64,000 bases of DNA from Lacticaseibacillus paracasei subsp. paracasei (GTDB taxonomy: Bacteria > Bacillota > Bacilli > Lactobacillales > Lactobacillaceae), in NCBI RefSeq assembly GCF_000829035.1, contig NZ_AP012541.1:1798001-1862000 (forward strand), in the 5' to 3' direction. Shown here piece by piece: positions 59,716 to 63,603 of this stretch (within the stretch, counting starts at the first letter, position 1; each line of letters opens with the position of its first letter). Below the pieces are notes generated by a model, which worked only from the letters and a program-made list of their open reading frames with translations, was not told the DNA's origin and did not search any database. The translations under genes and the position numbers were made by a program.

Positions 59716-60627
59716 TTATTCTTTTACGTATTTCAGCAGTAGTTCTTCCGGTCTCTCGCCTTTTGACTGAAACGATTGCTTTTTGCCCAAAACAAAAGCC
59801 ACCTCGGTATGAGGCAGCTGTGTGTATTCGCTTATATATATTTGTTTTGCCGGGCATTTTGCGAGCCATTGCTGGAATGAATCATTGTCAAAACCACCGT
59901 AGTCTTTAGATGTGCCAATATAGGGTGGATCACAATATACAACGTCGCTAGGTTTGACGTCGATTGAGCGATAGTCAAGCACCGAATATTTTAGCGGTTC
60001 CAGTCGTTCAAGTTGCTCAATTTGCTGAAGTTGCTGGAGTCGCTCGAGTTGCTCGAGTTGCTGGATCCGCTGGAGTCGCTCGAGTTGCTCGAGTTGCTCC
60101 AATTGGTTTCGGCGCCATTTGTGATAGACGGTATATTTCCCCGAAATAGTGGTTTCATTTTTTGCATATGAATAAAGCCCATCTAGTTGTGTACCAGTAT
60201 TTCCTGAGAATAATGCTCTTGTTACTAACAATTTTTCTTTTTCGGTTTTCTTTCCCCACAAATAATCGTGTAGGTTGTTGCCAAAGCTCCAAACGGTCAG
60301 CACAAGAGTGCGTTCAATCGAATCAGGCATGTTATCTCGCCAGTTGTCAAACGTTTCGCGATCCATATATACATACTTCATTAGATCAAAATGAGGGCTG
60401 TCTTCGATCAATGCTTTCAGCAGATCAACGGCTGTTCTTCGCCGGTCATTGTAAACTACTTCGTTCCATTTACCAGACGAGGCTGCTGTCAAGCTGATTG
60501 ATCCACCGCCTCCGAATACGTCAACTAGACGGTTGCCAGCGGGCAAGATGTCGATGATCTTTTCTGCCTTTTGGCCCTTGTTGCCAACGTATGGTAATCC
60601 GCGTTTCCATTTTTCTGACTGTTTCAA
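59716..60627 (-). CDS. DNA adenine methylase (D12 class, Dam-like)
   Basis: TTG at 60627 has GGAGG 8 bases upstream and gives 303 residues. Motif I is DVFGGGGSISL, motif IV is VVYCDPPYIG, and LPYVGNKGQKAEKI matches the N terminus of D12-class methylases. The enzyme methylates adenine, probably to protect phage DNA or to regulate. Between about residues 171 and 210 it carries a Leu/Gln/Glu repeat (LEQLERLQ...) encoded by a minisatellite. No cognate restriction gene is adjacent. Confidence 0.88.
   Translation of the reverse strand: MKQSEKWKRGLPYVGNKGQKAEKIIDILPAGNRLVDVFGGGGSISLTAASSGKWNEVVYNDRRRTAVDLLKALIEDSPHFDLMKYVYMDRETFDNWRDNMPDSIERTLVLTVWSFGNNLHDYLWGKKTEKEKLLVTRALFSGNTGTQLDGLYSYAKNETTISGKYTVYHKWRRNQLEQLEQLERLQRIQQLEQLERLQQLQQIEQLERLEPLKYSVLDYRSIDVKPSDVVYCDPPYIGTSKDYGGFDNDSFQQWLAKCPAKQIYISEYTQLPHTEVAFVLGKKQSFQSKGERPEELLLKYVKE
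59996..60107. repeat. In-frame minisatellite in the methylase gene
   Basis: About twelve imperfect 9-base units of the type GTTGCTCGA / GTCGCTCGA / GTTGCTGGA stand in tandem. The period is a multiple of three, so unit gain or loss would keep the frame and change the length of a coiled-coil-like Leu-Glu-Gln stretch. Confidence 0.85.
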
Positions 60628-60651
60628 ATTGGTTTCCTCCGAAATTATGTA

Positions 60652-60690
60652 TAAAAATAGCACCTCACCGTTTGGCGGAGTGCTATTTAG
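60652..60690 (-). terminator. Terminator of the ImmA cassette
   Basis: On the minus strand AATAGCACTCCG / CGGTGAGGTGCTATT is followed by TTTAT, 15 bases behind the ImmA-type gene. It separates the cassette from the methylase gene. Confidence 0.85.
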
Positions 60691-60705: not shown

Positions 60706-61875
60706 CTAAGCAAAACGGAAAATATTATTTTGCGAAGAACTGGAATCAGTAATTGTTCCGAGAAACGAATCAGAAAGTCCTAAAACTTCAATTAGTAGTT
60801 TCGGCTCTATTTGAAATACGTCCGATATGATTGAACCTAGGTCCCCTCTTTCATAAAGTAACTTCAAAAGCGTCTTTATTTTCTCTGGACGATTGATAGG
60901 AATATCGTTATCCAAAGGCTCAATTTGTTTATAGTGTTTTCTATACATAGAAGCAAAAAAGCGATTGTTTTGTTCTTTAGATACAAGCCCTAGTTTATAA
61001 GCCCGATACTCAGCGGTCGCTAACGAAACAAGAAAGTCTTTTTTAATAAGCTTATAATCATCTGGCCTTGCAGGATTGCGCACAGTCTTGAATGCTTCTT
61101 TGATTTTTTCTTGTGGTAAGAGCAACGCGGATGCAAACTCATTTGCCTCATGCTCGTACTCCCTAAACTCTGAGTTTTCCAAGTTCTCAAAATCAACATT
61201 TGTGTGCATTAATAGATGACCAAGCTCATGAGCAACATCAAAAATTCTTCTAACAGCGCTCTTATTACGTCTTCCTAAAATAATAAAAGGAGAGCGTAAT
61301 GAACCATCCTCATTTCTAGTCCAAACACTGTAGGCATCCGCATTAATATCAATTTCTTTCTCTATAACAAATGCTCCAGCATTTTCAACAATGTAAAGTA
61401 GCCTTTTATTGCTATCTATTTTTAAACTATTCCTAGTGTATTTTGCAGTATCTTCAATTGTCCACCCTTTTCCGGATAATAAAGCTTTCTTTTTTGTTGT
61501 ATTAAGCTGATGAACAAGACTCTTTAATTTGTTGGCTTTGAAATTTATGACCGCTTCGCAGTATTCAATAATATTTGCTGCAAAATTAATCTGAGTGACG
61601 TTTTGAGCAACGCTCTTTCTAATATTTCTTTCAGATGATCTAAATGCAACGTGTTGTGTTGGAACGATCCCGTTCCTTGGAAACTTTTTGAAAAAGAAAG
61701 TGCTTTTAACGTCAAAAATTTTGCTCATTTCAATTACAGTGTTAATTTCTGGCGAAAAACTTTCATTTTCATAGTTTCCTATTGATTGCTCAGTCAATTT
61801 CAACTTATTGGCTAGTTCTTTACGAGATACGCCATATAGCATTCTTAAATTTTTGAGATTTTCTCCATAAAACAT
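60706..61875 (-). CDS. HTH-ImmA/IrrE-family metalloprotease
   Basis: The 389-residue protein has an N-terminal XRE helix-turn-helix (LRMLYGVSRKELANKLKLTEQSIGNYE in parts, residues about 8-55) and a zinc protease domain with HELGHLLMH (about residue 220) and the third ligand in EYEHEANEFASALLLP. Proteins of this build cleave or are paired with repressors, as ImmA does in ICEBs1, or act as antitoxin-like partners. SD GAGGGG is 5 bases before the ATG and the unknown gene precedes it by 18 bases. The base composition is more A+T-rich than the flanking phage genes. Confidence 0.85.
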   Translation of the reverse strand: MFYGENLKNLRMLYGVSRKELANKLKLTEQSIGNYENESFSPEINTVIEMSKIFDVKSTFFFKKFPRNGIVPTQHVAFRSSERNIRKSVAQNVTQINFAANIIEYCEAVINFKANKLKSLVHQLNTTKKKALLSGKGWTIEDTAKYTRNSLKIDSNKRLLYIVENAGAFVIEKEIDINADAYSVWTRNEDGSLRSPFIILGRRNKSAVRRIFDVAHELGHLLMHTNVDFENLENSEFREYEHEANEFASALLLPQEKIKEAFKTVRNPARPDDYKLIKKDFLVSLATAEYRAYKLGLVSKEQNNRFFASMYRKHYKQIEPLDNDIPINRPEKIKTLLKLLYERGDLGSIISDVFQIEPKLLIEVLGLSDSFLGTITDSSSSQNNIFRFA

Positions 61876-61893
61876 TGAAATCCCCTCATATAT

Positions 61894-62652
61894 CTATTTT
61901 TGATTGTTTGTGTCCGTGTCTGTTTTCTTTTTAGCTTCCTTATAAAATTCAACTTGTTCTTCGTTTTCTGTATTTGGATTTATAAGATCACTCGAATCCA
62001 AGCCTTCTAAAATCTCACTAGGCATTCTAACTGGGCTTGCTGCATTAAGTGCCTTCAAATCTTTTATTTCTAACACTTTCGATCCAAAAAACAGGTTTAA
62101 GCCAACATCAGATATATCTTTGCTATCATTCACTCTATAAGTCAACAAATAGAGTGCTTCTGGAACATCATCAGAAGAAGACTCTTGCCGAACCTCGTTT
62201 AAAGCCTGCTCATCTTCCTCAGGCATATCAAGTATAGAAAGCTGTTCGGCCTCTTTTTTGTTTGTAAATAAGTCTTTAAAATCTTTATTGAATTCCATTC
62301 CCCACTGAGATATTACATTTCTTTTTCCGTTTTCTTTTCCTCCTAAATAACCACCGTCAATAGTTCGCTGCGGTTTTTGAACAAGCCAAATATAATGACC
62401 GCCTTCTCTTATTTTGAAGCAGACAAACTTCCACGATGAAGTTTGAAAAACTTTGGGGTCTACAGTATCATCACCATCAAATTGCCTTTTTATTTGGTCA
62501 TCTATGTGGTTGGCTCGTGTCCATGAATATCCGGAGCTAACAATCATTTCACGCTTCTTTTCAAAACGCTCCTCCAAATAGTCCAAGTATCCTTGCCTCA
62601 ATCCATCTACTAATTTCTGCGAAAAATCATCATTAAAAATATATGGTTCCAT
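61894..62652 (-). CDS. Unknown protein paired with the ImmA-type protease
   Basis: I do not recognise the family. The 252-residue soluble protein starts with a helix-rich part (FSQKLVDGLRQGYLDYLEERFEKKR), has a central beta-rich domain (SSWKFVCFKIREGGHYIWLVQKPQ; ALYLLTYRVNDS) and an acidic tail ending KKKTDTDTNNQK. It is the first gene of a two-gene unit with its own promoter and terminator, so it may be the effector or substrate of the protease partner. Composition is A+T-rich. Confidence 0.7.
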   Translation of the reverse strand: MEPYIFNDDFSQKLVDGLRQGYLDYLEERFEKKREMIVSSGYSWTRANHIDDQIKRQFDGDDTVDPKVFQTSSWKFVCFKIREGGHYIWLVQKPQRTIDGGYLGGKENGKRNVISQWGMEFNKDFKDLFTNKKEAEQLSILDMPEEDEQALNEVRQESSSDDVPEALYLLTYRVNDSKDISDVGLNLFFGSKVLEIKDLKALNAASPVRMPSEILEGLDSSDLINPNTENEEQVEFYKEAKKKTDTDTNNQK

Positions 62653-62681
62653 ATTCTCGCCAGCTTTCTATTTATTGTCTA

Positions 62682-62690
62682 ATTATAGCA
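62682..62690 (-). promoter_or_regulatory. Extended -10 promoter of the ImmA cassette
   Basis: On the minus strand TGCTATAAT (TG at 62690-62689, TATAAT at 62687-62682) lies 29 bases before the ATG of the first cassette gene. The -35 is poor, as is usual with an extended -10. Confidence 0.65.
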
Positions 62691-62737
62691 CCTCTTTTCA
62701 TTTTTTCGGCTATTTTCTTTTCTTATTTTTTTGATCC

Positions 62738-62950
62738 AAAAAAGCGAGCGGGCGGAGTTGCACCGTCCTGTTTCAGCATTGCTTAACCGGTATCAATGCC
62801 TTCCCTCATCTGTTGCTCGCATAATGCGCACGGCTTCGATCGTTAACCGTACGGCTTCTGGCTGTTCACCCTTGTCAACCAGTGACCAACTTTGATTGGC
62901 TGGCAGGACTTTCACCCGCTGTATCTTCCATCAGCCACGCTCGCTCTCCC
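62738..62950 (-). ncRNA. Compact structured RNA in the prophage
   Basis: On the minus strand AGCGAGCG (62945-62938) and CGCTCGCT (62750-62743), about 190 bases apart, close a region ending in TTTTTT. Inside are local hairpins: GCGGG(TGAAAGT)CCTGC, CCAA(TCAAAG)TTGG, GGTTG(...)CAGCC, CGCA(TTA)TGCG, GCATTG(...)CAATGC and GG-A-CGG(TGCAACT)CCG-CC. No protein frame with an SD fits. The stretch is richer in G+C than its neighbours. It does not match a class I know. The 5' end is unknown and may include the tRNA-like element. Confidence 0.6.
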
Positions 62951-63002
62951 CAGTGTCAGATGGGGTCATCGCAAGCTGTGTCCGGTCGCTAAACTGGACA
63001 AT

Positions 63003-63066
63003 GTGGCATGCGGGAATCGAACCCGCCTGACTATCACGGTCAGTCCTCATTGCCACGCCTTGCCAC
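63003..63066 (-). ncRNA. tRNA-like element without a D-arm
   Basis: On the minus strand a perfect T-arm GCGGG-TTCGATT-CCCGC, a 5-bp anticodon-like arm CTGAC(CGTGATA)GTCAG directly joined to it, and an acceptor GTGGCA / TGCCAC with discriminator A are seen. Two copies of GTGGCAA upstream can supply the 5' acceptor strand (63056 or 63066). A canonical D-arm, U33 and variable loop are missing, so it is probably not a working tRNA. Confidence 0.55.
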
Positions 63067-63165
63067 AGCTTTATCATCACCATGGCACGGAGGAAAAACG
63101 CGGTGTCTCAGGTTTCTCACCTTTGGCACAATACCATCATATGACGGAAAAACAGTTGAAAGGTC

Positions 63166-63603
63166 TCACAAAGGTCTCATCTCGATTTCAACCAATGGAC
63201 AAATCTCAGCGAATGCGATTAGCGCTTCTCGTTTTGTTCGATAATACTGGGCTTTTGATAAAAACAGCTTGTCCATTATTTGCTGGTCACTATATCGTTT
63301 GGTTAAGTAAGAACTTGTTAGTATAAGCCGATGATTCGCTGAATCCAGAGATTCGATAGCACCTTCACAGCACGCTATATAGTACAGCTCGTCAGCGTGC
63401 GATATTACCTTGTCCTCGGCTTTGTTGCCATAGCTAGGTGACTTGGGCATGCCGTCCATCACGGGACTTCTGAGCGCTATTTTGGTGCGTTGAGCGATCC
63501 GCTTATGATGCCAGTAGTTCCCCAAGACCTCTTTGGCGTTTTCAATTGTTTTTTCATGATCAATTGGGCTAAAATATCTCGTTGCTCGCACCACTGCGTC
63601 CAC
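63166..63603 (-). CDS. ArpU-family late transcription regulator
   Basis: This 145-residue protein ends the early region. The C-terminal sigma-like helix-turn-helix (TKRYSDQQIMDKLFLSKAQYYRTKREALI, as adjoining parts) and the YYIACCEGAIESL region match ArpU/RinA-type activators of phage late genes. From here, transcription would run into the packaging and structural genes. Confidence 0.85.
   Translation of the reverse strand: MDAVVRATRYFSPIDHEKTIENAKEVLGNYWHHKRIAQRTKIALRSPVMDGMPKSPSYGNKAEDKVISHADELYYIACCEGAIESLDSANHRLILTSSYLTKRYSDQQIMDKLFLSKAQYYRTKREALIAFAEICPLVEIEMRPL

Follow-up and report, generated by a model that had tools for sequence, protein, structure and literature searches.

A row of tRNA-like elements downstream of the late regulator gene in a Lacticaseibacillus paracasei prophage and in related phages

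The tRNA-like domain of tmRNA has an acceptor, a T-arm and a stemless D-region, its anticodon arm being replaced, and the elements described here are alike in this respect. The eukaryotic mascRNA-menRNA is a small tRNA-like RNA cut by tRNA-processing enzymes. Neither model reaches its gathering score at the present locus: the tmRNA model (RF00023) matches 17 nt of a T-arm with 14.3 bits for a gathering score of 47, ARAGORN calls no tmRNA, and the match of the mascRNA-menRNA model (RF01684) is weak (14.9 bits), far under its gathering score of 42.5. Phage tRNA islands, e.g. those of iLp84 and of the prophages Lj965 and Lj928, occupy the same place after the late regulator and some of their units are true tRNAs. 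In contrast most units here are unable to decode, 219 out of 244 receiving no ARAGORN call. As presented in PMC3399842, the tRNA-Other of Bacillus cereus is likewise tRNA-like, stands outside translation and is part of a longer transcript; it carries a Trp anticodon and comes from a chromosomal gene, not from a phage cassette array. Armless and D-armless mitochondrial tRNAs have also lost one or two arms, but PMC7609411 describes them as tRNAs of translation, whereas here the anticodon arm is lost or capped and the T-arm kept. The large RNAs GOLLD and ROOL are likewise non-coding phage RNAs, often found near tRNA islands according to PMC12286853; they differ from the present array, which is not one large fold and which, in the window or in the loci scanned, has no Rfam match to either. 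Among titles and openings of abstracts from the open-licence literature of PubMed Central we found no report of elements such as those described below, and print elsewhere may hold one; a match of terms in PMC5643018, which concerns a long RNA of Lactobacillus salivarius, falls in its reference list.

The window, i.e. the whole stretch of 64,000 nucleotides analysed here, contains a prophage with the following order of features: arpU, two tandem 11-bp repeats, a TATGAT box, a leader, the D-armless tRNA-like structure TLS1, a conserved hairpin and a variable slot. Features are on the minus strand unless otherwise stated. The late regulator gene that had been placed upstream of the array is indeed found there: it is arpU (63166-63603), recognised by TIGR01637 (ArpU, E 3.7e-21) and phrog_248 (E 5.2e-46). 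The repeats (TGAGACCTTTG TGAGACCTTTC; 63158-63179) are a putative regulator binding site of a late promoter. Among 92 distinct upstream segments the mean best 10-mer identity is 8.93 out of 10 at lag 11 and 3.7-5.1 at the other lags (7-17), with 61 segments reaching 9 or 10. These repeats, the sequence of which varies among phages, adjoin a TATGAT-like box. The putative -10 box of the window is TATGAT (63136-63141), and TATGAT or TATTAT is recurrent upstream in a survey of 97 loci; from this arrangement we infer a transcription start near 63129.

TLS1 (63003-63056) is the only strong one of the three tRNA-like units of the window. The sequence-only reading had described here a D-armless element with acceptor, anticodon-like arm and T-arm, and the segment does fold accordingly (-21.6 kcal/mol, z -2.44, 1 of 200 shuffles as good). 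It is also matched by the strict form of a scan for T-arms whose loop is tRNA-like and which are directly followed by a 3' strand pairing with an upstream 5' strand. Over both strands of the window this strict scan returns three matches, TLS1 and two true tRNAs. Only these two tRNAs reach the gathering score of RF00005 in the window; TLS1 stays below it and has no ARAGORN call. TLS1 is composed of a 6-bp acceptor with an A.A mismatch at pair 7, a linker with GG, a 5-bp arm with a 7-nt loop devoid of U33, and a T-arm. In all 35 TLS1 rows pair 7 is mismatched (A.A or A.G), and position 33 is a G in all 28 distinct rows with a 7-nt loop, where a tRNA would have U33. Pair 7 aside, the elements do have the acceptor, the T-arm and the 3' end of the tRNA type. 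Where TLS1 starts (63050-63066) there are two copies of the heptamer GTGGCAA, 10 nt apart. A few relatives (L051, L052 and L082) keep the first copy and have a mutated second one, so that the acceptor could change its partner.

Two conserved hairpins follow. The first (TGTCC...GGACA; 62979-63000) is predicted by folding and present in homologs; the second (GCTTGC...CCCCA...TGGGG...GCGAGC; 62939-62976), also a predicted fold, contains the 5' arm of a long-range stem. Together (62939-63000) they fold with a z of -2.97. In two relatives, L032 and L036 (phages R3.1 and BH1), TLS1 and the conserved hairpin are separated by some 155 nt without any tRNA-like element called by the scan. Further downstream, TLS2 (62897-62937; fold z -1.42) is an armless minihelix made of an acceptor and a T-arm joined by a 12-nt linker, ATGGAAGATACA; its outermost pair is broken in the window and intact in the relative at L002. 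TLS3 (62744-62820; fold z -1.34) is a degenerate tRNA-like 3' unit (GCGAGCA...TGCAACT loop...CGCTCGC) with an A.C mismatch in its T-stem. The strict scan picked up neither TLS2 nor TLS3. Taken alone both are weak, and their weight comes from relatives only.

The long-range stem of 8 bp, which had been thought to close a single G+C-rich block, has both its arms in place (62938-62945 and 62743-62750), but not the organising role given to it. Its 5' arm (GCGAGC) is found in 121 of 146 regions from related loci, and the 3' unit in 26 of the 117 of these with enough sequence; the AGCGAGCG/CGCTCGCT stem was thus rejected as the organising feature. As the 3' unit is mostly absent, and as a local fold with the partner GCTTGC is predicted, the conservation of the 5' arm is not owed to long-range pairing. 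For the 3' arm the alternative partner is the acceptor of its own unit, TLS3, and it is not clearly better: double changes in L023 and L094 favour it, while a number of the 27 distinct variants have mismatches to it. The single closed fold is itself disfavoured, the homologs being modular arrays of separate units and hairpins, and 62738-63066 is better taken as a series of distinct tRNA-like units and hairpins within a variable slot. Of the earlier description, the D-armless element, the regulator, the T-run at the end and the two 8-bp arms are confirmed; the stem as organiser is not.

The fold of the whole region is moderately better than that of shuffles (z -1.75, 4 of 100 as good). As claimed, it contains no credible protein frame on the minus strand, where frames do not exceed 50 aa. 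On the plus strand a 144-aa frame spans part of the array and enters arpU antisense. In several phages annotated hypothetical or unknown proteins overlap the array, which we nevertheless rejected as coding sequence because TLS1 variants have 53 or 54 nt, and such one-base changes in length would shift any frame. No Rfam family reaches its gathering score in 62738-63066, the matches of group-II-D1D4-4, Plastid-ycf2, Streptomyces-metK and sR16 being weak and far below theirs; together with the covarying stems described below, this supports a phage RNA that is structured, tRNA-like and outside the listed classes.

The array ends on a T-run (62738-62743), where a scan of 62600-63250 detected no terminator, and in the window no terminator-like hairpin directly follows the array. 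In the related loci a terminator-like hairpin with a T-run generally closes the unit: it is present within 700 nt past the conserved hairpin in 107 of 118 regions for 4 of 118 once shuffled, as counted by a home-made scan against mononucleotide shuffles, the rest of the 146 regions having no motif or less than 250 nt of sequence. In the 98 regions where both an element and a terminator are called, no element lies past the first terminator; the other 9 of the 107 have no called element. In three regions (L004, L016 and L036) a CACCTCA/TGAGGTG complementarity encloses the hairpin that follows the array, and this complementarity would cover the probable ribosome binding site of the following gene. 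In the window a terminator-like hairpin with a T-run is found at 60653-60685; two other regions have a hairpin of identical sequence past their array. The tool-based terminator scan did not report the one in the window. Between this hairpin of the post-array kind and the RNA array lies a defence pair of the toxin-antitoxin type resembling RmrA/RmrT (60706-62652). The toxin gene (61894-62652; RmrT-like, spr1630 family) is recognised by PADLOC (RmrT, E 1e-51) and scores 122.4 bits with NCBIfam NF052238, just under the cut-off of 125. The repressor/antitoxin gene (60706-61875; RmrA-like, spr1629 family, HTH and M78 peptidase) is recognised by PADLOC (RmrA, E 1.9e-136), by NF052239 above its cut-off and by Pfam. 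A gene for a methyltransferase of the D12 class (59716-60663) has a repetitive QLEQLERLQ-like stretch at 59980-60120.

A DNA search with the region gave matches in 45 phage records, every one of them named as a Lactobacillus or Lacticaseibacillus phage; no record covers 80% of the query in one place. Of 199 genomes searched in the same way, 15, including that of the window, have a match, and all belong to one genus. The matching loci are modular, with a conserved part (leader, TLS1 and hairpin) and a downstream part that changes even between close relatives. Further loci came from a pattern scan of viral contigs (105 stretches) and from an ArpU search (89 relatives, 80 kept), and the resulting 228 loci gave 218 usable regions, of which 146 are distinct. 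The scan identified 244 tRNA-like elements (129 distinct sequences) in 133 of these 146 regions, with up to four per locus, and none in antisense; none was found either in mononucleotide shuffles (3 x 30 regions). A stricter version gave 49 elements in 25 loci for a shuffled mean of 0.15, with none in antisense and none in the 900 nt upstream. In all 105 pattern-fetched loci (974 kb) the strict scan places 186 matches in the slot (140 kb), against 3 in sense outside it and 3 in antisense. A 44-nt minihelix-like match (GCGATGA ... GGTGGTTCGACTCCGCC GCATCGC) lies outside the slot in one of L044-L148; it could be a displaced element. The TLS1-type element is called in 112 of the 146 regions, hence not in all, and two of seven further loci of the genus (L339 and L349, one of which is in the genome of the window itself) have no element.

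These elements are of several kinds. A rough classification of the 244 gives 113 D-armless elements of the TLS1 type, 35 tRNA-Leu scaffolds with inserts, 33 with a D-arm motif, 2 armless minihelices, i.e. without D-arm and without anticodon arm, and 61 others. Judging from a reading of the sequences, some members of the D-arm class have no anticodon arm at all and some have an anticodon loop of four bases (tetraloop). The tRNA-Leu scaffold has near-constant ends, between which eight unrelated clusters of inserts are found in 25 distinct sequences. When submitted to ARAGORN, 14 of the 244 elements receive a three-letter anticodon and 11 another call. A few true tRNAs do occur in the slot at some loci, e.g. 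a tRNA-Ile in iLp84; in the array of the window ARAGORN calls neither a true tRNA nor a tmRNA. By their sequence the elements look built for tRNA-like processing without a part in translation.

The helices show compensatory changes, as a covariation check on the stems should reveal for a structured RNA. The acceptor and T helices, to which this count is limited since the MAFFT alignment of TLS1 misplaces the middle arm, are paired in 154 of 154 cells over 14 distinct TLS1-type sequences, a full pairing that is partly built in because the scan selects paired acceptors and T-stems. Double-sided changes are found in 27 cells, where shuffles give 8.0 and none of 500 reaches the observed value. Less telling is how many pairs show any double change at all: 7, for 5.1 shuffled (46 of 500). 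The middle arm of TLS1 is outside the demands of the scan and displays C-G/A-U, U-A/G-C and G-C/C-G exchanges among 35 distinct rows, which were filtered at at least 4 of 5 pairs. Of 31 D-stemless forms, 30 have a GG among the first seven bases of the linker, where 500 shuffles give a mean of 13.35 and a maximum of 21; many of these forms are related, making about 14 independent families, and 10 of 41 short forms, some of the TLS1 type, had been excluded, probably wrongly, for a possible D-stem. It is as if the GG of the D-loop were kept to meet the T-loop. Finally, the 3' ends of the elements resemble, in sequence, host tRNA precursors: in 126 redundancy-reduced elements and 52 distinct host tRNAs respectively, position 73 is A or G in 108 and 43, and position 74 is T in 111 and 38. 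A G at position 76 is commoner in the phage elements (81 of 126) than in the host tRNAs (12 of 52).

The ArpU family (phrog_248) has a match in 213 of 295 genomes of the order. We scanned 80 arpU loci, 30 returned by the phrog_248 search and 50 picked down its list; 7 belonging to the genus of the window were dropped. The remaining 73, from other genera of the order, contain 46 sense elements with up to five per locus; 26 loci have at least one and 47 have none. None was found in antisense, none in 43.5 kb on the other (upstream) side of arpU and none in five dinucleotide shuffles of each locus, the shuffling routine having preserved dinucleotides in 40 of 40 loci checked. These elements, of which 15 overlap ARAGORN calls, include armless minihelices as well as Leu scaffolds with inserts. 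The prophages Lj965 and Lj928 of L. johnsonii have annotated tRNAs in the same place, and in Lj928 the scan finds an extra element without ARAGORN call. L290 and L291 match the Listeria sRNA families rli28 and rliG, and rliG could represent the leader of a unit of this kind. In L291 (1197-1542, minus strand) the end of rliG (1317) is a few bases from the start of a Leu-scaffold element (about 1325). DNA related to L291 is found in Listeria phages, e.g. A118 and A500, the fetched regions of which have no credible element: A500 has none, and A118 has one A+T-rich match overlapping a gene start. For two element-bearing loci, L324 and L313, no match was found in the phage collection.

The structure of the elements and their organisation as a unit are well supported; as to expression and function, we infer the following from the arrangement. 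Our first choice, held tentatively and at somewhat less than even confidence, is that a late promoter of the phage drives an RNA unit yielding tRNA-shaped RNAs unable to decode, most likely mimics acting in trans. The late regulator would turn on the unit at a late stage. RNase P and RNase Z would then excise the tRNA-like pieces, as we propose because the acceptor, the T-arm, the elbow GG and the 3' end are kept, and CCA may be added to them. The missing or capped anticodon arm would keep these RNAs off the codon. They would act by occupying an enzyme that recognises the tRNA body, either a defence or toxin attacking tRNAs or a tRNA enzyme of the host, and the exchange of cassettes between close relatives would reflect selection by changing targets. 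The enzymes that mature tRNAs are thought to read the parts that are kept, and the ribosome the parts that are lost. We prefer mimicry in trans because maturation features are retained while decoding is lost, because the array has its own putative promoter and terminator and because cassettes are exchanged. The slot is also shared with true tRNAs and with a defence-type pair, and true phage tRNAs can counter defences attacking tRNAs, including by cleavage, as stated in PMC11555353.

The same conservation is, however, explained by a leader acting in cis. The units would then be processing signals or part of a leader controlling the late operon, and their internal part would be free to vary because processing enzymes read the upper half only. 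The layout of the lambda late leader, i.e. promoter, short RNA and terminator, is comparable. Such a role would fit the position of the array just past the putative late promoter, the terminator-like hairpin after it in 107 of 118 regions, the conservation of the parts presumably read by RNase P and RNase Z, and the leader and hairpin kept while the rest changes. But one unit would suffice, yet up to four are found per locus in the genus and up to five outside it; the terminator after the array would cut it off from the late genes unless there is read-through; and close relatives carry different cassettes. We regard the role in cis as rather unlikely, and as the main rival of mimicry in trans.

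That the elements are relics, i.e. decaying phage tRNAs which lost decoding and persist by chance, is improbable. True tRNAs do share the slot at some loci, and TLS2 and TLS3 of the window have mismatches as decay would produce. The compensatory changes argue against it, as do the TLS1-type elements in 112 of 146 regions and the armless plan and GG common to unrelated sequences; moreover the stems, by reading of the sequences, are capped by tetraloops and not decayed. Still less probable are scaffolded regulatory RNAs, in which the tRNA body would protect a variable insert that pairs with targets. The eight unrelated insert clusters in 25 distinct tRNA-Leu scaffold sequences would suit such RNAs, and the B. 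cereus pseudo-tRNA sits, as reported in PMC3399842, in a larger regulatory RNA. However, the armless forms have no insert, and one 65-nt insert, from one of the eight clusters, has no long match in its own genome, the best other match being 15 nt (E 0.59). One compact, ornate RNA akin to GOLLD or ROOL, suggested initially since both occur in phages and often near tRNA islands, is scarcely credible and was rejected because Rfam lists neither for the window nor for the 15, 20 and 20 loci scanned and because the homologs are modular, variable arrays, the region being moreover about 330 nt long where many GOLLD members exceed 800 (PMC12286853).

If the first choice holds, the elements could form a class of phage RNA that is undescribed in the literature we searched: tRNA-mimic cassettes dead for decoding and often armless, expressed from a dedicated late promoter-terminator unit in several genera of Lactobacillales and probably in Listeria, processed like tRNAs and serving as exchangeable decoys for enzymes that recognise or attack the body of tRNAs. 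We consider this wider proposal possible, with considerable doubt. Since most of the elements escape both ARAGORN and the Rfam tRNA model, a common RNA cargo in the temperate phages of food and gut bacteria may be unannotated, or annotated as small hypothetical proteins. The exchange of cassettes makes these phages a source of natural variants. Should the RNAs be processed and work in trans, phages would have in them a non-coding equivalent of the tRNAs with which they overcome tRNA-cutting defences; a role in cis would show phages using tRNA processing to shape their late transcript.
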